Below, piece after piece: positions 926-44,051 of a stretch of 44,051 nucleotides of DNA; position 1 is the stretch's first letter, and every line of letters starts with the position of its first letter. The translations under genes were made by a program, and so were the position numbers. The notes beneath the pieces were generated by a model. It did not search any database and had not been told where the DNA came from. It worked only from the letters and a program-made list of their open reading frames with translations. Origin of the DNA: a virus. The stretch covers positions 1-44,051 of IMG/VR virus record IMGVR_UViG_3300031576_000110; one strand, 5' to 3'.

Positions 926-954
926 ATTATAACATATCCGAAGAAGTTTGTCAA
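926..954 (-). promoter_or_regulatory. Leftward sigma70-type promoter (perfect consensus)
   Basis: On the minus strand TTGACA (954-949), 17-base spacer, TATAAT (931-926), with TGT immediately before the -10 (extended -10). Transcription would begin near 919 and read the small gene at 892, then the terminases. Confidence 0.9.
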
Positions 955-1006
955 GTGGGCGGGATTGGTTCCCCCTCGTGCTCCCCCTCCGTTCTCTTCT
1001 ATCTCT

Positions 1007-1035
1007 ATGATAACACATATTCCGAGGTTTGTCAA
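1007..1035 (-). promoter_or_regulatory. Leftward sigma70-type promoter, upstream member of a tandem pair
   Basis: On the minus strand TTGACA (1035-1030), 17-base spacer, TATCAT (1012-1007), with TGT before the -10. It lies 81 bp upstream of the promoter at 926-954, with no gene between them. Confidence 0.85.
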
Positions 1036-1454: not shown

Positions 1455-1481
1455 AACCGCTAGTTACTGTGTGGCACGTTC
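1455..1481. repeat. 27-bp inverted repeat, left arm
   Basis: The 27 bases starting AACCGCTAGTTACTGTG are the exact reverse complement of 1907-1933. The two arms face inward and enclose 425 bp with two small genes. No target-site duplication is visible outside the arms. Confidence 0.95.
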
Positions 1482-1531
1482 CACTGTAAAACGCGGGCGT
1501 CTCTAAATCGCCCTCGTAGGAAGGAACCCAC

Positions 1532-1738
1532 ATGGCAACACGCACGAAGGTTATCAACGCAGTGGATAGCACCGTCTCTGTCACGCAGATACGGCTGCAG
1601 ACCCACTACGGGAAGAATCACGATAAGGCCGGACAGCCTTGTATGTCATCGACTGACAAGGCAATGACAATCGCCTACGTGGTTCTTTCCAACGGTTTCA
1701 AGGGAACGGCATTCTGTGTCGCCCCGAAAACCGGCTAG
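1532..1738 (+). CDS. Small hypothetical protein, first gene in the inverted-repeat cassette
   Basis: 68 residues, no family recognised. ATG 1532 is preceded by a good AGGAAGGA site. The sequence is mixed, with a basic start (MATRTKVINAV), two Cys and a hydrophobic patch (AYVVLSNGFKGTAFCV). A small GGGCG/CGCCC hairpin (about 1494-1512) precedes the ribosome-binding site. It sits wholly between the inverted-repeat arms and overlaps the next gene by 23 bases. No promoter of the class seen elsewhere precedes it. Confidence 0.6.
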   Translation: MATRTKVINAVDSTVSVTQIRLQTHYGKNHDKAGQPCMSSTDKAMTIAYVVLSNGFKGTAFCVAPKTG

Positions 1739-1901
1739 TAACAAGGGTGAGCGAGACGAAGATTTGTTCTCCTTGAAGACATGGGCGGTCATCCTCGCAA
1801 AGCAACATGATGCCCGCACCATAGCAATGCTCGCTCTCCCACCCACCGTCGGCTGGGCCTGGAAGCATAACGAGGTGGATAACCCAGACCCCAGCAACTA
1901 A
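1716..1901 (+). CDS. Small hypothetical protein, second gene in the inverted-repeat cassette
   Basis: 61 residues from a GTG start inside the end of the previous gene, so probably translationally coupled. It has a charged N-terminus (MSPRKPASNKGERDEDLF) and a C-terminal part with Trp (GWAWKH). Function is unknown. The stop falls five bases before the right inverted-repeat arm, so the arms bound the gene pair closely. The unusual start and lack of a known family keep confidence moderate. Confidence 0.5.
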   Translation: MSPRKPASNKGERDEDLFSLKTWAVILAKQHDARTIAMLALPPTVGWAWKHNEVDNPDPSN

Positions 1902-1906
1902 TCTTC

Positions 1907-1933
1907 GAACGTGCCACACAGTAACTAGCGGTT
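1907..1933. repeat. 27-bp inverted repeat, right arm
   Basis: Exact reverse complement of 1455-1481. It begins five bases after the stop codon of the second cassette gene (stop ends at 1901) and is followed by a run of T. Confidence 0.95.
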
Positions 1934-1986: not shown

Positions 1987-2015
1987 ACCGTACCTATATC
2001 AAGGTGCGGTTTTTG
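1987..2015 (+). terminator. Rho-independent terminator after the cassette
   Basis: An eight-base-pair stem (ACCGTACC/GGTGCGGT, one G-T wobble) closes an 8-base loop and is followed by TTTTTGTT. It would stop rightward transcription from the inverted-repeat cassette before the zinc-protein operon. Confidence 0.8.
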
Positions 2016-2762: not shown

Positions 2763-3476
2763 ATGAAGCGATATGAAGGCTGGCACTTCAGCGCGGGGCG
2801 TGAGGCTTATGGTGAGCATCGGCCTATTGCGACAGGGACGCGGCTTGACATTGAAGGAGAGCCTAAGCTTTGTGCGCGCGGGCTGCATGGTTCAGCACGT
2901 GCTATTGACGCGTTGAGTTATGCTAGAGGCTCCATTGCCTCGCGGGTTGTTCTCAGTGGCACGATTGTAATAGGTACTGATAAGGCCGTTGCGACTCGTC
3001 GCCATCACAAGTCCGTGTTTGACGCCAACGGCCTGTTGCATCGCTTTGCGGTGTGGTGTGCGGGCATGGCTTTAACGCAAGAGCGCGAAGCGGGGAGAGA
3101 GCCGGATGCGCGCAGTTGGGCGGCACTGGATGCTAAGATGCAGTGGCTCAGCGGGATTGCAACCGATGAGGATTTGGCTGCCGCAAGGGACGCCGCAAGG
3201 GCCGCAAGGGACGCCTCAAGGGCCGTAGGGGCCGCCGCATGGGACGCAGGGGCCGCCGCAAGGGACGCCGCAGGGGCCTTAGGGGCCGCCGCAAGAGCCG
3301 CCGCAAGGGACTCTGCGTGGGCCGCAAGGGAGGCCGCAAGAGGCGCTGCATGGGCCGCAAGGGAGGCCGCAAGAGGCGCTGCATGGGCCATAGGGGACTT
3401 TGCAAAGGCCGCCGCAGTAGACGAGCAAAACCGTATACTTACCGCTGCTCTAGTCTACGTGGAGGGGCGGAATTAG
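2763..3476 (+). CDS. DUF7666-like protein with Ala-rich repeat tail (paralogue 1)
   Basis: 237 residues. The N-terminal ~90 residues (GWHFSAGREAYG, then LCARGLHGSARAIDALSYA, then SRVVLSGTIVIGTDK) resemble a phage domain of unknown function in which GLH..A.DAL.YA and a DKxVA motif recur. From about residue 138 it turns into a long repeat of roughly five residues (AARDA, AAWDA, AAREA), probably a helical repeat. It ends in a conserved NRILTAALVYVEGRN. The ribosome-binding site AAGGAGGG is strong. A paralogue lies at 3799. The repeat DNA is GC-rich compared with its neighbours. Function unknown. Confidence 0.8.
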   Translation: MKRYEGWHFSAGREAYGEHRPIATGTRLDIEGEPKLCARGLHGSARAIDALSYARGSIASRVVLSGTIVIGTDKAVATRRHHKSVFDANGLLHRFAVWCAGMALTQEREAGREPDARSWAALDAKMQWLSGIATDEDLAAARDAARAARDASRAVGAAAWDAGAAARDAAGALGAAARAAARDSAWAAREAARGAAWAAREAARGAAWAIGDFAKAAAVDEQNRILTAALVYVEGRN

Positions 3477-3798: not shown

Positions 3799-4419
3799 AT
3801 GCGAGAGTACGCGGAGAGATATCATGGGTGGCACTTCAGCGCAGGGCGAGAGTCTTATGGCGAGCGTCGGCGCATCGCAACGGGAACGCTGCTTACCATC
3901 AAAGGAGAGCCCACGCTTTGTAGGAACGGGCTACATGCCAGCTACCGTGCCATTGACGCGCTAAGATATGGCAGTGGTCCTATTGTCTCGCGGGTGGTGT
4001 TGACTGGGAAAATCATACTTGACACCGATAAGGCTGTCGCTACTCGCCGAAAGCACAAACTGGTGTTTGACGCAACCGACCTATTGCATCGCTTCGCAGT
4101 CTGGGAAACGGGCGTAGCGTTGACGCAAGAGCGTGAAGCAGGGCGAGAGCCTCCTGCGCAAGTTTGGGCAGCGCTGGATGCCAAGATCGGGTGGCTTAGT
4201 GGTTCGTTAACTGCGGAGAAGTTGAACATCGCAAGCACTGCTACATGGTCTGCCGTTACATGGTACAATACATGGGACGCTGTAAGGGCTGTTACATGGT
4301 ACAGTGCATGGGACGCTGCAAAGGCTGCTGTGGAGGCTGCTGTGGGGGCCGTAGCAACAAGCGCCCAGAACCAGAGACTAGAACGCGCTCTGCTCTATGT
4401 CATGGGGAGGTACAGATGA
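3799..4419 (+). CDS. DUF7666-like protein with Trp/Ala repeat tail (paralogue 2)
   Basis: 206 residues. It aligns by eye with the protein at 2763 over about 130 residues (GWHFSAGRE, RNGLHASYRAIDALRY, SRVVLTGKI, DKAVATRR, LLHRFAVW, ALTQEREAGREP). In place of the pure Ala/Arg repeat its tail is WSAVTWYNTWDAVRAVTW, a shorter Trp-rich version of the same pentad pattern. The C-terminal QNQRLERALLYVMGRYR matches the paralogue. AAGGAG precedes ATG 3799. It overlaps the next gene by four bases. Function unknown. Confidence 0.8.
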   Translation: MREYAERYHGWHFSAGRESYGERRRIATGTLLTIKGEPTLCRNGLHASYRAIDALRYGSGPIVSRVVLTGKIILDTDKAVATRRKHKLVFDATDLLHRFAVWETGVALTQEREAGREPPAQVWAALDAKIGWLSGSLTAEKLNIASTATWSAVTWYNTWDAVRAVTWYSAWDAAKAAVEAAVGAVATSAQNQRLERALLYVMGRYR

Positions 4420-4745: not shown

Positions 4746-6035
4746 ATGACACCCTGTTATGTACTGGCTTGTGATCAGACACCGTGGTTGAAATGGGAGA
4801 GAACAACCCTGTGGGGGTTTATTTGTCCAAAACATTCTCAATACAAGAACCATATTGATCAAAGGGTAAGCGTCCTAGACTCATGTTATCTCCACCCGCT
4901 GGGGCACTGTACCCCCAAGTATATCTACTTAAACCTCCGGGGGAAGCTAAAGCCTACCTGTCTGTCCGGCCCGCCACTCGGCCCGGCGGAGACATGGCGC
5001 AGTGGAGAGCTAATAATAGCCAAACAACTATCCACTTTACCTGCTGAGAAAAAGAAGTCAACACCTAAGCTCGAGTGTATAACCTGCGCGGGCGGCCTCC
5101 CTGTCTTCCCCCTCCACTGCCAGAAATGTAACACGAAACCGCTTTGCAAGGAGTGTTGTAACGGCCCTTGCTTTCTATGCAATGACTGTCATGACTCTTC
5201 ATGTCCAAGCTGTACTCCCTGTAGCATATGCGGCGGCGTACAACTACACCTTTACTGCTCAACGTGTAATAGTCCAACATGTGACGAGTGTAGTTGTTCC
5301 ATTTGCGTACAGTGTGACGACTGTCACAGGCTATGCGAGAACTGCGGAAGCTGCTCAAACGAATGCTCCTGTTTTAATGAGCCCGACGTTGCGGCGTCCC
5401 TTTGGGAACTCGACCTCTGCCTAAACCTGCCCCGGGTGGCTGCTCAATTCTACTGGCTAGAGTACCTGGCCTATCAAGCCCCACACTTCAAGCCCCGGTT
5501 CCAGAAGTTTGCCGAATTCCTCGCTGGTATATTCAGCCGATATATTGATATGGCAATAGGCGGAGAGCTTCGCTACGGGAGAAGTACTTGCAAAAATTCA
5601 AACGAGGTGATGCCCCGTATCGATGAACGAATCTCGCCTGCTCCTTCTCGTGGTACTGCATGGGCTGCGTGGTACGAACTAAGACAGGAGCTAGGCGATA
5701 GCATTCTCGAGGAGGCAGAGGATGCTTTGCTAAACGGGCAGTGGCATAACTCCGCAATTGGTGGCCCAGCGTGGGGTAAGTGTGTCTCTCTCCTCCGCAT
5801 GTACCTCAACGAAGATATTCCACCTGCGGTATTTGTTGACCAAGCGTTCAGCCTTGAGCACAATGGGGGGTATATATTCAACAAGTTGTGGGATGTGACT
5901 AACCTTGATAGCGTTCTTACCTGTAAGTTCAATGGGGAGCTAGACAAAATGCTCAAGTTCCTTCCTCTCAACGAGCAGTACGCCCGCCAAGTTGAGCGGA
6001 GATTCGCACCTAAACTAATGAGAGAAGGCGATTAA
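4746..6035 (+). CDS. Large Cys-rich zinc protein with a phage-specific C-terminal domain
   Basis: 429 residues. Residues 111 to about 211 hold 27 Cys in about 100 positions, mostly as CxxC pairs (LCKECCNGPCFLCNDCH, CSICVQCDDCHRLCENCG), implying several zinc sites in series. The last ~190 residues contain a pattern I recall from uncharacterised actinophage-type proteins: IGGPAWGKC, then FVDQAFSLEHNGGYIFNKLW. The N-terminal 100 residues also have paired Cys/His. It overlaps the next gene by one base. The biochemical role is unknown; multi-zinc scaffolding or nucleic-acid binding is possible. Confidence 0.75.
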   Translation: MTPCYVLACDQTPWLKWERTTLWGFICPKHSQYKNHIDQRVSVLDSCYLHPLGHCTPKYIYLNLRGKLKPTCLSGPPLGPAETWRSGELIIAKQLSTLPAEKKKSTPKLECITCAGGLPVFPLHCQKCNTKPLCKECCNGPCFLCNDCHDSSCPSCTPCSICGGVQLHLYCSTCNSPTCDECSCSICVQCDDCHRLCENCGSCSNECSCFNEPDVAASLWELDLCLNLPRVAAQFYWLEYLAYQAPHFKPRFQKFAEFLAGIFSRYIDMAIGGELRYGRSTCKNSNEVMPRIDERISPAPSRGTAWAAWYELRQELGDSILEEAEDALLNGQWHNSAIGGPAWGKCVSLLRMYLNEDIPPAVFVDQAFSLEHNGGYIFNKLWDVTNLDSVLTCKFNGELDKMLKFLPLNEQYARQVERRFAPKLMREGD

Positions 6036-7324
6036 TGATTAATGCTAGCAACTCTGGCGTACATGTACATACTGCTACTTCCGTGCTGGTGCAACTGTTT
6101 TGTGTCAAATGCCAAGAGATATGCACCCATCAGACCGGGTTCGATGATTACGTATGGTGCCAGCGATGTCAGACAGTATGGGATGTTGACGAGATACCTG
6201 TATCCGATATGTATGCGGACGGGGTAGACCTTGCATGGATAGAGACATACCTTACCAAGCATGACGCAAGGAGTGTGAGTGCCACATTCCAGACTTATTG
6301 CTCTGAATGTAAAAAGCAGACCACCCACCATATCTCCGTATACTCTAGCTTGCCAGTGTGCTCCGAGTGCAAGTACTTGAACGTGACTGCTGACCTAATC
6401 AAGACAGATACCAGTCCTATGGTTAGGCCCGGCCCCAATTACGCTGGTACAATATACGGCAATAAGCTATGCATCCACTGGCGGGATATAGTATCCATCG
6501 GTGACTACTATGTCACAGTGTCGGCTTCATATGATAGACTGAGGGGCAGACAACTAGAGCGGGCCGACCCCGACTACGGTGTGTATCTCTCCATCTATGG
6601 CTGGCAATCCAATGTGATGGTAACACCCGGTTTCCCTACTACAGTACCAAATAACGAAGATTATCCTATGTTGTTCTTTGAATGGGATGATGGGGCAGCA
6701 CCAAGAAATCCAGCAACAGAGGCCCTCGTTACGTGGCTCGTAGCCCAGATTCAGGCCGGTAAGATTATCGACATTGGTTGCATGGGTTCACATGGTAGAA
6801 CAGGCACTCTCTTAGCTCTACTTATCCTAGAGATAGAGGGGGGGACAGCCAAGGAGGCTATTGACAAGGTGCGTTCTCGTCACTGCGTTGAGTGTATTGA
6901 GACATACCGACAGGAGTGTTTCATCTTCAACTGGAACCACGAGCCATCTCCTGCCCCCGAACATAACCCGACTACAACATACAAACTACCGCTAGATAAA
7001 AGCAACTCCAAGTTTAAGTATGCTAATCGAACAGAGAAGAAAGCAGCAAAACGGAGGCGTCGGGATAACCGACAGAAATTTCGGGAGCAAGTTGAGGAAG
7101 CTCGGGCCGTGGCTAAGGAACAAGGTATCACGTGGGTAACGTATCGAGACAACGTATTCGAGAACCCGTGTTCTTTCTGGGAATGTAACGAGTGTGCAGC
7201 AATAGTGAAGGCAGCATATGTTGTAACCACTTTTCCATATAAGCGGTTCTGTAACAACTGCAAGCGGATGCAAATACACCAAAGGCCTATTTGTCTAAGC
7301 GAGGAGGGTGAAGATGCCAGCTAA
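6035..7324 (+). CDS. Dual-specificity/tyrosine-phosphatase-like protein flanked by zinc fingers
   Basis: 429 residues. The central motif IGCMGSHGRTGT has the CX5R signature of cysteine phosphatases (Cys249, Arg255), preceded by a beta strand and followed by a helix (LLALLILEIEGGTAKEAI), as in that fold. The N-terminal part has FCVKCQEICTH and WCQRCQ, and YCSECKKQTTHH with VCSECK. The C-terminus adds FWECNECAAI and FCNNCKRM, so zinc ribbons lie on both sides. A very basic helix (KKAAKRRRRDNRQKFR) precedes the last ribbon. It might dephosphorylate protein, RNA or nucleotide; the substrate is unknown. It ends overlapping the next gene. Confidence 0.75.
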   Translation: MINASNSGVHVHTATSVLVQLFCVKCQEICTHQTGFDDYVWCQRCQTVWDVDEIPVSDMYADGVDLAWIETYLTKHDARSVSATFQTYCSECKKQTTHHISVYSSLPVCSECKYLNVTADLIKTDTSPMVRPGPNYAGTIYGNKLCIHWRDIVSIGDYYVTVSASYDRLRGRQLERADPDYGVYLSIYGWQSNVMVTPGFPTTVPNNEDYPMLFFEWDDGAAPRNPATEALVTWLVAQIQAGKIIDIGCMGSHGRTGTLLALLILEIEGGTAKEAIDKVRSRHCVECIETYRQECFIFNWNHEPSPAPEHNPTTTYKLPLDKSNSKFKYANRTEKKAAKRRRRDNRQKFREQVEEARAVAKEQGITWVTYRDNVFENPCSFWECNECAAIVKAAYVVTTFPYKRFCNNCKRMQIHQRPICLSEEGEDAS

Positions 7325-9387: not shown

Positions 9388-9817
9388 TCTTCCCGCTCGC
9401 CCAGAATATCTTTACGAAAAATTTGCTACGACGGATGATGGTTGTGTTGTCTGGTTGGGGGGTATGGACAAGGATGGATATGGGCTTATGGCCTCTTATA
9501 AGAAAACACGATTTAACTGGCGGACACACCGGCTTGCTCTAGCTCTTCATTACAATGCCTTAATTCCTTCGCATGTTCTTGTCCGGCATACATGCAGCAA
9601 CGCAGGCTGCGGTTACTTCGGCCATCTTCTGCTTGGTCAGGCTCAAGATAACCACGACGACTATACAACCCAAAATCCTATCTGTAAACAGCATCATCCG
9701 ATTAAGGACGAGCATTGGACACCTTATGTGAATTCAAACAGACGCTCCTTAAAGCGATACCGTTACTGCGACGCTTGCCAACCAATACTTATCGCGCTTA
9801 AAGCCAACTGGCGATGA
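9371..9817 (+). CDS. HNH endonuclease
   Basis: 148 residues. The segment GCVVWLGGMDKDGYG, then HVLVRHTCSNAGCGYFGHLL, then LGQAQDNHDDY, follows the phage HNH pattern, with His/Asn/His candidates in RHTCSN and GHLLLG. A C-terminal CKQHH and YCDACQ add Cys/His that could bind a structural zinc. ATG 9371 follows GAGGAGG. Such genes are often free-standing homing nucleases; it sits directly upstream of the polymerase with a four-base overlap. It might nick an intronless relative's polymerase locus, but the target is unknown. Confidence 0.8.
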   Translation: MFPWLNLPARPEYLYEKFATTDDGCVVWLGGMDKDGYGLMASYKKTRFNWRTHRLALALHYNALIPSHVLVRHTCSNAGCGYFGHLLLGQAQDNHDDYTTQNPICKQHHPIKDEHWTPYVNSNRRSLKRYRYCDACQPILIALKANWR

Positions 9818-11976
9818 CTGAACTCTTAACAGACATAGCCAAGACAATCAAGAAGGATGGAGGTGTGCCGGGCGAGGCGCGGTTCTATAACCAGAGTGCT
9901 GCCCTTGTCCAAGGAGAATGTCTAGTATTTATTGGTGAGGCACCGGGCCCAACGGAAGTTATGCGAGGCAGACCATTTGTTGGGGATGCGGGCAAGGTAC
10001 TCGACGGACTATGCCAAGAGGCGGGGATAACTGCTGCATATATCACCAATATCTGCAAACACTTCCCCGGTAGGGACAAGGACGGTAAGATAAAAGCGCC
10101 GACTGTCGAGGAGTCTGCCCGCTGGCAACCGTATCTTGCTGAGGAACTGGCTATACTCCAGCCGAAGACAGTCATACTCCTCGGTGTTGCCGCCTGCAAG
10201 TGGGCCTTCCCCGGCGTGTGGAAGCTAGGCAGTATCGTCGGCACCAAGGTGCACATCAACGGCATAGACTACATTGCAGCGTGGCATCCGGCCAGCTTCC
10301 TATATAACCAAGGCAAAGCTAGCAATACTAAGAAGATGAACCAAGAAAGGCGGATATTTAAGGATGCTATTACCAGCGAAGGAATTAGTTACCCGTTCCA
10401 TCTGGTCTCTCCCAACCGACGAAGTGGACGAATATACCTTGACATTGAAACGGAGGGGTCAACCGATATTCAGACGGCACTCATACACGAGTGGGCGTAC
10501 ACAAGTGACGAGTCCGAAGAGGCTACGCTCTGCTTCGATAGGTCTGTACTCCCTCCACGACCCGACTCAGTGGTATTTCACAACGCTATGTTCGACTATC
10601 CAATACTGTGTCGGCAAGACCCGGCGTGGTATGGTGTTACCGATATCCATGATTCGATGGTTCTTGCGTACACTCAGGGGTACGAAGACCTCAGTCTTAA
10701 GGGACTCAGTAATCAACTATTCGGGGTCAAAGTCTACGACTACTCCCAACGAGGAGAGTGTGGTGCTGAAATCTACAATGCCCAAGATGTCTTCCTTACC
10801 CGCAGACTTTTTACCCACTTACTACCAATGTCTGACGGCATTGCGTACGATATTGACCGACGACTTATTCCGCTACTTACTCGTGCAAGCCTTGAAGGAG
10901 GATACTTTATTGATAAAAAACGGCTCGAAGCGGTAATAGATCAGACTGAGGAGGAGAAGGCCAACTTAGAGTTTATGTTCCAGTCCCGATATAACGGTAT
11001 CAATATGGGTAGTTCAGCCCAACTTCTTGACGTGTTCCCGACTAAAGATACTACGGCTGATACCCTCAAGAAACTTGGGACGATGGATGCAGAGATTATT
11101 CTACGTTGGCGGGGGTTGAACACTGACCTAACCCGCTACCTATATCCCTGCCGTGACTTGAAGCGGCTGACTGGCAAGTACCGGCTCACATCAGGTGGGG
11201 ATAAGTACGGCGGAGATGACGAGGGGGGTACTAGGACAGGGCGGTTGTCAAGCTACGACCGCAACCTGCAGAACCTAGACCCTATCCTCCAAGCCTGCCT
11301 ACACGCTCCTAACAAGATGGAGCTACTAGCCCTCGACTATTCCCAAATAGAGCTACGAGTAGCAGCAGAGATTAGCCAAGACCCCTTCTTGCTTAGTGTT
11401 ATTAGGGAAGGCCGGGATATACATGCCGAAACGCAGGCGTTCCTTGCTGGATATGGCATCAATCTTAGTCGCGGTAATATCAAGCCTATCACCTTTTCAA
11501 TTCTGTACCTCGCTGGAGAAGGCCGTGTCTCACAACTTGTTGGCAATAGAGATGTTGCGGCGCTTATATATTCAAGACTGCGCGAACTATACGCGGGCTT
11601 CTTTGCGTGGGCGGAGCACCATTGGCAGGAAGTACAGCGCACGGGGCTGAGCATCAGCCTAGACCCATACCGTCACAGGCGCTTTATCCACACGTACAAC
11701 AACAAGGATGCCAAGAAGCAGGCAGCTAATCATCCGGTTCAGTCGGGGGCCGGATATATAACGAAGGAAGCAATGGCTGGCATTGGCCATGAGCCTGGAG
11801 TCCGGGAGTTCGTAAACCAAGTTCACGATGAGCTACATTACTTTATACAGAAAGGAGATAAGGCCACCCAGAAGTACGTATACGAAGCAATGATGGATAT
11901 TGGCAACACACGACTACCGACAATCGGGGTTGAGGTCAATGTTGAATGCAGTAGGTACTGGCAACCAAAGCTATAG
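9814..11976 (+). CDS. Uracil-glycosylase-like / 3'-5' exonuclease / DNA polymerase A fusion
   Basis: 720 residues with three parts. Residues 1 to about 180 match the family 4-like uracil-DNA glycosylase superfamily (GEAPGPTE 41-48, GRPFVGDAG, HPASF from His158) but lack the usual Fe-S cysteine set. Residues ~205-330 are a DEDDy exonuclease (Asp210, Glu212, FHNAMFDY, Tyr321-Asp325). From ~340 it is family A polymerase. Motif A LALDYSQIELR has catalytic Asp508, motif B is RGNIKPITFSILY, and motif C is VHDE (670-673). This is the phage replicative polymerase. SPO1-type phages are known to pair such domains, so the fusion is unusual but not unique. Confidence 0.93.
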   Translation: MTELLTDIAKTIKKDGGVPGEARFYNQSAALVQGECLVFIGEAPGPTEVMRGRPFVGDAGKVLDGLCQEAGITAAYITNICKHFPGRDKDGKIKAPTVEESARWQPYLAEELAILQPKTVILLGVAACKWAFPGVWKLGSIVGTKVHINGIDYIAAWHPASFLYNQGKASNTKKMNQERRIFKDAITSEGISYPFHLVSPNRRSGRIYLDIETEGSTDIQTALIHEWAYTSDESEEATLCFDRSVLPPRPDSVVFHNAMFDYPILCRQDPAWYGVTDIHDSMVLAYTQGYEDLSLKGLSNQLFGVKVYDYSQRGECGAEIYNAQDVFLTRRLFTHLLPMSDGIAYDIDRRLIPLLTRASLEGGYFIDKKRLEAVIDQTEEEKANLEFMFQSRYNGINMGSSAQLLDVFPTKDTTADTLKKLGTMDAEIILRWRGLNTDLTRYLYPCRDLKRLTGKYRLTSGGDKYGGDDEGGTRTGRLSSYDRNLQNLDPILQACLHAPNKMELLALDYSQIELRVAAEISQDPFLLSVIREGRDIHAETQAFLAGYGINLSRGNIKPITFSILYLAGEGRVSQLVGNRDVAALIYSRLRELYAGFFAWAEHHWQEVQRTGLSISLDPYRHRRFIHTYNNKDAKKQAANHPVQSGAGYITKEAMAGIGHEPGVREFVNQVHDELHYFIQKGDKATQKYVYEAMMDIGNTRLPTIGVEVNVECSRYWQPKL

Positions 11977-42676: not shown

Positions 42677-44051
42677 TTACTCCATGATTAGGCGAGGCCG
42701 AGGCCTGTCGATAATAGACGAAGGATGGCGAAGGCGGGTAAGGTTATCCACAAGGATGAAGAGAGCATCTAGGTCATCGTCGTGGGAGGCGTAGGGGAAC
42801 CTTGTAAGATTGTACTTGGCGTCTTCATACCACTCCGCACTTTTAGGGAAGAGTACATGTCTGCCATGCAAGAAGGGAGCAAGAGCGTGGGCTCGGGTGG
42901 TCTTTCCCCCACGGTATGTAACGGGCACGGTCGGGATATGTGGCGAAGATTCCATAAGAGTTTGAATCGCTGGCGTACCAGAGGCGGCATCTTCAATCCA
43001 GATATAGGACTGTCCCCAGGCGATGAAGGAGTTGTTGATTTGTTCAAGGAGTTGAGGAAGTCCCCAGCGTCCCTTGACTCTATCGAGGACATAGACGCGC
43101 CCCCATCTATCCATGCCACCGACGTATCCGACACTAAAGTCATTTGATTGTTTCTCCTTAAAAGCTGTATCCCAGCCCGAAGCTACCAGTAAATCCCCGT
43201 TCCGAAATAGAGTGTCGGGGGTGTCGCTATAATCACTGAGATATTGTATGATTCCCGTCTCGCCCCCGGTTGTGTCCCCCATGTATTGAATGGCAAACAG
43301 GGCTGGTGCCTCGTAACGGATAGCGTTGAGGAACTCCCATGTATAGGCTTCGGGCCAGTATGACCGGCCATTGTTATGGATGGCCGGAGTGTACAGGACA
43401 CGCCACCCTTTTTGCTTAGTAAGCTGGCCAATGAAATCATCATCAGCCCATCGAGTGCCGATAACAACTTGCCAAGCCTTCTGAGTAAGTCGTGTCCTAA
43501 GTGCTTTTTCATAATTATCAAATACCTTGGCCCGCAAGTTGGGTGTAGCCGCATCCTTTGGGTCATGTGGGTCATCAACAAGGAGGCCATCTAAACGGTA
43601 GGCCACCACTGAGGACTTCATTCCCCCGGCACGAAGTGTCGGGTGCGGGTCTCCCACTTTCTCTCGGACTACAATGAACTCCTTGTCTCCCCACTTGTCC
43701 TTGCTTGGGGATATCTCCGGGAAGATAATGCGATAAGGCTTAGAGCCAGTGAGGAGTTCCTTCACAGCCCTAGACCGAGACCAACCAACTTGGTCTGAGT
43801 ACGAGAAGAGACCATAATGGTCGTCCCGCGCTCTGCCTATCATGTAGGCGAGGTACGCACACATGATGGTGGTTTTGCCCGAGCCGGGTGGGGCTATAAT
43901 GCATAATTTCTTTCCCGAAGGATTATCCGCTACTTCTTGGAGGGCGGCTACCCATTCCTTCTGGTGTGGTGCAGGCTCGAACCCATACACGAATCGGAGA
44001 AAGTTTGCGAATGACCGGCGAGCGTCTTGTCCTTTGTGCAGGAGGGCCTTA
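42677..44051 (-). CDS. terL: Terminase large subunit (main part; N-terminus lies at 1-153)
   Basis: ATP-driven DNA-packaging motor and headful/end nuclease. The frame is open through the contig end. Joined to 128-153 it starts at GTG 153 and gives 466 residues, normal for the family. Walker A APPGSGKT is at about residues 62-69 and a Walker B-like stretch LLVDDP follows. The C-terminal RNase H-like nuclease has acidic motifs in SGWDTAF, WIEDA and SHDDDLDA. Read from 43990 alone (GTG) the protein would lack 29 residues. It lies directly downstream of the small subunit and 3 bases before the zinc-ribbon gene. The function is firm; the exact start is probable. Confidence 0.95.
   Translation of the reverse strand, partial: KALLHKGQDARRSFANFLRFVYGFEPAPHQKEWVAALQEVADNPSGKKLCIIAPPGSGKTTIMCAYLAYMIGRARDDHYGLFSYSDQVGWSRSRAVKELLTGSKPYRIIFPEISPSKDKWGDKEFIVVREKVGDPHPTLRAGGMKSSVVAYRLDGLLVDDPHDPKDAATPNLRAKVFDNYEKALRTRLTQKAWQVVIGTRWADDDFIGQLTKQKGWRVLYTPAIHNNGRSYWPEAYTWEFLNAIRYEAPALFAIQYMGDTTGGETGIIQYLSDYSDTPDTLFRNGDLLVASGWDTAFKEKQSNDFSVGYVGGMDRWGRVYVLDRVKGRWGLPQLLEQINNSFIAWGQSYIWIEDAASGTPAIQTLMESSPHIPTVPVTYRGGKTTRAHALAPFLHGRHVLFPKSAEWYEDAKYNLTRFPYASHDDDLDALFILVDNLTRLRHPSSIIDRPRPRLIME
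43925..44051. repeat. Terminal direct repeat, right copy
   Basis: Exact copy of 1-127. Removing one copy gives a circle of 43,924 bp. The terminase reading frame continues without interruption from 44051 into position 128, which supports circularity. Confidence 0.97.

Follow-up and report, generated by a model that had tools for sequence, protein, structure and literature searches.

Small early genes of related phages are bracketed by complementary flanks that may pair in the message

RESULTS

Two small ORFs are closely framed by a perfect inverted repeat

The stretch of DNA analysed here, called the window, is a viral record of 44,051 bp. It carries an exact 127-bp direct terminal repeat (positions 1-127 equal 43925-44051), and its TerL gene spans the two ends of the record; on both counts the window looks like a complete genome, closed or terminally redundant. 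The initial annotation of this DNA had pointed to a cassette in a divergent control region, and the surroundings agree with that placement: the cassette is flanked by TerS, TerL and two leftward promoters on one side and by rightward early genes on the other. The features of the region are as follows.

926..1035, minus strand: two strong sigma-70-like leftward promoters (954-926 and 1035-1007) of the divergent control region, from the promoter scan
1455..1481, plus strand: left arm, on the 5' UTR side, of the perfect 27-bp inverted repeat (exact reverse complement)
1532..1738, plus strand: ORF1, 68 aa, ATG start, with AGGAAGGA ahead of the start (ORF call)
1716..1901, plus strand: putative ORF2, 61 aa, GTG start (ORF call)
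1907..1933, plus strand: right arm of the 27-bp inverted repeat (exact reverse complement)
1987..2010, plus strand: intrinsic-terminator-like hairpin closing the unit, from the terminator scan

The two arms are reverse-complementary at 27 of 27 bases and stand 425 nt apart. By a wide margin they form the longest inverted repeat of the record, the runner-up measuring 15 nt. With three mismatches allowed, the arm sequence occurs at only two sites in the genome, against none expected (100 shuffles), and the pairing score of 68 exceeds the best score of 55 among 200 dinucleotide shuffles of the window. ORF1, which has a good ribosome-binding site, and ORF2 both lie between the arms and overlap by 23 nt. 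The right arm starts 5 nt past the ORF2 stop codon and continues into a T-rich stretch (GGTTTTTCTTT). The terminator-like hairpin follows 53 nt outside this arm; the scan of the region gave two such sites where 1.5 are expected by chance, which is weak evidence alone. No promoter for the cassette itself was recognised in the promoter scan, the TTGACA at 1431 having no fitting -10 element.

No target duplication is visible at the cassette, and the 27 window proteins scanned, a set outside which some small ORFs fall, contain no transposase, integrase or recombinase domain. ORF1 and ORF2 gave no useful match in Pfam, PHROGs or phage records. There was likewise no match for the arm and ORF1 in viral contigs, in a DNA search of phage records, or in tRNA, tmRNA and Rfam searches. 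The description given in the initial annotation, a perfect repeat around two small overlapping genes of unknown function, with a terminator just outside and neither target duplication nor transposase, therefore stands.

Relatives carry other bracketed genes at the same place

We found relatives via TerL and read the locus as the sequence between TerS and the control region on one side and the early genes on the other. The nearest TerL relative (L003) is a contig that stops short of the locus. Four phages reach it: the window and three contigs, L004 (TerL 59% identical to that of the window), L005 and L010. The initial annotation had proposed searching related phages for the arms and both proteins, and the answer is divided: neither the arm sequence nor the proteins of the window cassette are found in the relatives, but the architecture is present at the same place, as the following arm pairs show.

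L004, 6676-6651 and 6275-6250: arms of module 1, perfect core 18 bp
L004, 6249-6223 and 5881-5855: arms of module 2, perfect core 17 bp
L004, 5835-5810 and 5125-5099: arms of module 3, perfect core 18 bp
L010, 7565-7537 and 7252-7224: arms of module m1, a 29-bp repeat with two mismatches, enclosing an 85-aa gene
L010, 7215-7174 and 6574-6532: arms of module m2, imperfect over 43 columns, enclosing a zinc-ribbon gene and a 116-aa gene
L005, 1404-1363 and 765-723: arms of the one module, homologous to L010 m2

Counting the window cassette, the four phages have seven modules and six distinct arm pairs between them, with arms of 26-43 bp. Modules at the syntenic place are consecutive where there are several: L004 has three and L010 two, with one each in L005 and the window. 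They measure 342-737 bp, with 284 to 701 nt between the arms. Each L004 module holds its own small gene or genes; modules 1 and 2 abut, module 3 lies 19 nt further, and a strong terminator then follows. In L010, m2 starts a few bases beyond m1. The 116-aa gene has an ortholog (46% identical) in L004 module 3, where a zinc-ribbon-like gene precedes it and the arms are different. Start codons lie 15-50 nt 3' of the left arms, the start of L010 m2 being taken as ATG 7158 from the sequence and its alignment with the L005 start, and the right arm lies 5-17 nt past the stop codon in six of the seven modules.

The window cassette has no direct homolog among these modules. We group it with them because of its locus and geometry, and because the outer nine bases of its arm (AACCGCTAG/CTAGCGGTT) and the bases ahead of them (AATACAA) resemble a hairpin, AACCGCtttcaCTAGCGGTTT, which L005 and L010 have at the equivalent position. 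ORF1 was also considered as an ortholog of the L010 m1 protein; this was dropped, since 25% identity was reached only in a forced alignment and BLASTP was empty. Searches for more bracketed modules via TerL, a Cys-rich 429-aa protein, the helicase and GTDB contigs found none. In one further record (G001, the record behind L156; L183 end and L184 start) the contig is interrupted at the module locus, and the remainder is without significant bracketing. The contig ends at this break do not overlap, as if the locus varied or had assembled badly.

Several other features were noted along the way. Four more distant TerL relatives contain inverted-repeat pairs with a related motif like GGGCGGGTAGG (L119 7067-7363, L123 7188-7510, L127 124-373 and L128 6749-6998), those of L119 and L123 lying about 2.5 kb ahead of TerL. 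The 320 nt between the L123 repeats look non-coding and structured, and L119, L123 and L127 gave no Rfam match. In another phage group, a dispersed, operator-like palindrome, TTTGAGTTTAAACTCAAA, occurs in the early region (L067 6650-8599; also L068, L080 and L081). L158 has 54-nt hairpin-forming direct copies at 789-842 and 1085-1138, 242 nt apart and able to pair mutually. In the window, 2763-3476 and 3799-4419, by the cassette, encode tandem paralogs whose N-terminal part is weakly like Pfam DUF7666, one of them with an Ala/Arg-rich tail encoded by 9- and 12-bp DNA repeats. The protein encoded at 6035-7324, which has no Pfam match, contains a CxGxHGRTG stretch (CMGSHGRTG) that is kept in the L010 and L156 homologs and resembles the CX5R motif of protein phosphatases. 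At 9814-11976, a single ORF encodes both a uracil-DNA glycosylase domain (Pfam UDG) and a family A DNA polymerase (Pfam DNA_pol_A).

Flank pairing exceeds shuffles and is confined to the first early transcript

A loose scan with G-U pairs over about 1.7 Mb gave other pairs scoring 50-61, mostly in GC-rich coding DNA. Because of these, we did not count the pairing score alone as proof and used per-sequence shuffles instead. The score lies above 200 of 200 shuffles in the window, L004, L010 and L005, and the duplex between 5' UTR and 3' flank beats every shuffle in all seven modules. The corresponding duplexes are ordinary for eight unit choices of the other early genes of the window, for three L010 units and for one L004 unit, another L004 unit being borderline. 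Bracketing is confined to the first early transcript; the other early genes of the window have no brackets. In RNA folds of whole arrays the best structure includes the helices, whose pairs, where formed, have probabilities of 0.96-1.00, and the window RNA fold has a z of -7.7. Pairing of the arms is well supported.

Arms are conserved above the adjoining genes

Arms match within a module and are unrelated between modules, except in the homologous pair of L005 and L010. In this pair the homologous arms are identical at 43 of 44 and 37 of 43 positions (92%), whereas the module genes are 76% identical, with 64 of 117 third codon positions identical in the 116-aa gene (55%). The leader upstream of the module has about 49% identity and is not alignable. 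Conservation of the arms above the adjoining genes indicates that they are under selection. No double compensatory change occurs in this single homologous module pair.

Transition-type mismatches, read in the sense RNA, comprise 11 independent G-U and 4 A-C pairs (one-sided binomial p about 0.06), with the three positions common to L005 and L010 entered once. This excess of G-U leans toward the RNA level; L010 m1 points the opposite way, its two A-C pairs being G-U in the antisense strand. Since the same bracketing recurs with different arms in the relatives, the conclusion best supported by these comparisons is that complementarity, and not arm sequence, would be what is kept at the locus. 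The initial annotation had named a state that would imply chance or static structure, in which every relative has the cassette and arms fixed and collinear, with one arm degenerate; this was not encountered.

A module is present in one phage and absent from its close relative

Around the locus, L005 and L010 share about 80-90% identity, yet m1 is present in L010 and absent in L005. Their alignment stops at L010 7225 and the outer end of the m1 arm is at 7224, in this one case; a sharp presence/absence edge at the repeats, as for mobile elements, is thus seen in L010 versus L005 only. No arm and no cassette turned up in a second copy. The L010 cassette recurs unchanged in six contigs, drawn from different metagenome records, and always in a single orientation (6 of 6). 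The m1 gene has relatives in Mycobacterium phage DrLupo and Caulobacter phage CcrBL10, where they sit unbracketed in ordinary operons; bracketing thus seems to belong to the locus and not to the gene.

DISCUSSION

A possible role for the arms in the early message

Among the options of the initial annotation, an RNA structure covering a short operon has become the best supported, given bracketing at the same place with different arms in relatives. In our interpretation, to which we give an even chance, the arms mark the two ends of a single transcribed unit and join in the RNA, as leader-trailer helices that close a module. Both arms are likely to lie on one transcript, given how the genes are ordered, that terminators follow downstream and that none separates abutting modules. 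From the sequences we infer that the pairing likely acts in RNA rather than in DNA. The first rightward transcript beyond the divergent control region would then be a chain of modules, each consisting of a short translation unit, of one or a few small genes, and a long-range helix of its own, about 26-43 bp long, joining the 5' UTR to sequence past the stop codon. The mRNA of a module could be excised from the common transcript, or both of its ends could be kept double-stranded, and modules would thereby be independent and gained or lost whole. As our best reading by analogy, the helices would insulate, process or protect interchangeable early-gene modules; RNase III cleavage or protection from exonucleases as their purpose is a guess. 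More tentatively, and with more doubt than conviction, we suggest that a newly acquired gene may become a self-contained, separately processed or protected message through a unique helix in the module chain. A helix spanning 300-700 nt in a translated message must face competition from local folding.

The mobile cassette offered in the initial annotation fares unevenly. Tiny elements with inverted terminal repeats, served in trans by an enzyme and entering an early-operon hot spot, would fit the absence of L010 m1 from L005 with its breakpoint at the arm, as well as the three different modules in a row in L004, and their 342-737 bp with one to few genes recall the 439-bp MPME1 (PMC3029335). 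However, six of the seven arm pairs are unrelated and could not all be read by a single enzyme, and the modules have no target duplication, no second copy of arm or cassette and, in the proteins scanned, no transposase or recombinase domain, though such an enzyme might act in trans or be encoded by a small ORF outside that set. The m1 relatives elsewhere lack brackets, and a spent insertion end would not need arms conserved above genes, as they are in L005 and L010. A transposon with a common recombinase is unlikely; mobile cassettes in the wider sense also seem unlikely to us. The arms might instead be functionless by-products of replication, fold-back or template switching having copied the 3' end of a unit, inverted, to its 5' side, or an older imperfect pair having been turned perfect. 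That the window arms match perfectly would point to copying in the recent past, and the likeness of the outer nine bases of the window arm to the L005/L010 hairpin also speaks for a by-product. Yet at least six events would be needed at a single locus and nowhere else in these genomes, the arms are conserved between L005 and L010, and their placement always spares coding sequence; the two variants taken jointly appear rather improbable.

Readings in which the arms act as DNA find less room. As paired binding sites for a regulator, replication or packaging protein, they would be well placed in the control region, and the mismatches of L010 m1 are not in favour of sense RNA. But proteins read sequence, of which the arms of different modules have none in common, and the spacing ranges from 284 to 701 nt, making the regulator-binding pair of the initial annotation very unlikely. 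In its geometry, a segment of 425 bp enclosed by a perfect 27-bp inverted repeat does match a switch flipped by a site-specific recombinase. Against the invertible cassette, also suggested there, the six L010-type contigs, identical over the cassette, show one orientation, the proteins scanned contain no recombinase domain, and adjacent modules, with arms that differ, would need separate enzymes; it is scarcely credible.

Comparison with known systems

The leader-trailer pairing that we favour has its nearest counterpart in bacterial rRNA, whose flanks form helices of 25-40 bp (27 bp for 23S) that are RNase III substrates (PMC10250234). The modules share with these the distant complementary flanks of similar length, which could close each unit with a helix of about 25-40 bp; there would likewise be several units per transcript, and a structure that, between modules, may be kept as its sequence varies. 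Unlike rRNA, the units inside encode proteins and vary from phage to phage: ORFs in the relatives' modules have protein relatives, the window has no Rfam match, and the arms are unrelated even in neighbours. Further, the rRNA helices are cut by RNase III, whereas for the phage helices cleavage is a prediction.

Pairing between both UTRs of one bacterial mRNA, giving a double-stranded substrate, is also found in Staphylococcus aureus icaR, where 5'-3' UTR pairing is followed by an RNase III cut, and a short UCCCCUG motif pairs with the Shine-Dalgarno region of the one gene and blocks its translation (PMC3868564). The phage arms, by contrast, are 26-43 bp long, lie outside the ribosome-binding site and recur per module. 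The ultra-small mycobacteriophage mobile elements MPME1 (439 bp) and MPME2 occur as copies of identical sequence at different sites, with 6 bp added at one end (PMC3029335). Like the modules, they measure a few hundred bp, carry about one small gene, have inverted-repeat ends and vary in presence between close phages. Terminal repeats common to element copies, as in a transposon or MPME, are nevertheless absent here: arms and genes differ between the phage modules, which occupy one fixed locus.

In phage T7, RNase III divides the polycistronic early mRNA at local hairpins between genes. There too, a phage early transcript is split into units at double-stranded RNA, but the module helices would join both ends of a unit, where the T7 sites are local and intergenic. 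To our knowledge, long-range helices joining the ends of a unit are textbook matter for rRNA and hardly known for bacterial or phage mRNAs, and word searches of the open literature, incomplete in coverage, found no phage early operon of such modules. The working principle is known from rRNA; if it applies here, phage message packaging of this type is probably undescribed. Matched ends of its own on every unit, around unrelated genes, would suggest strong selection for end-pairing of the early message, either against nucleases or for processing. If true, this would explain how small early genes are swapped as finished modules.
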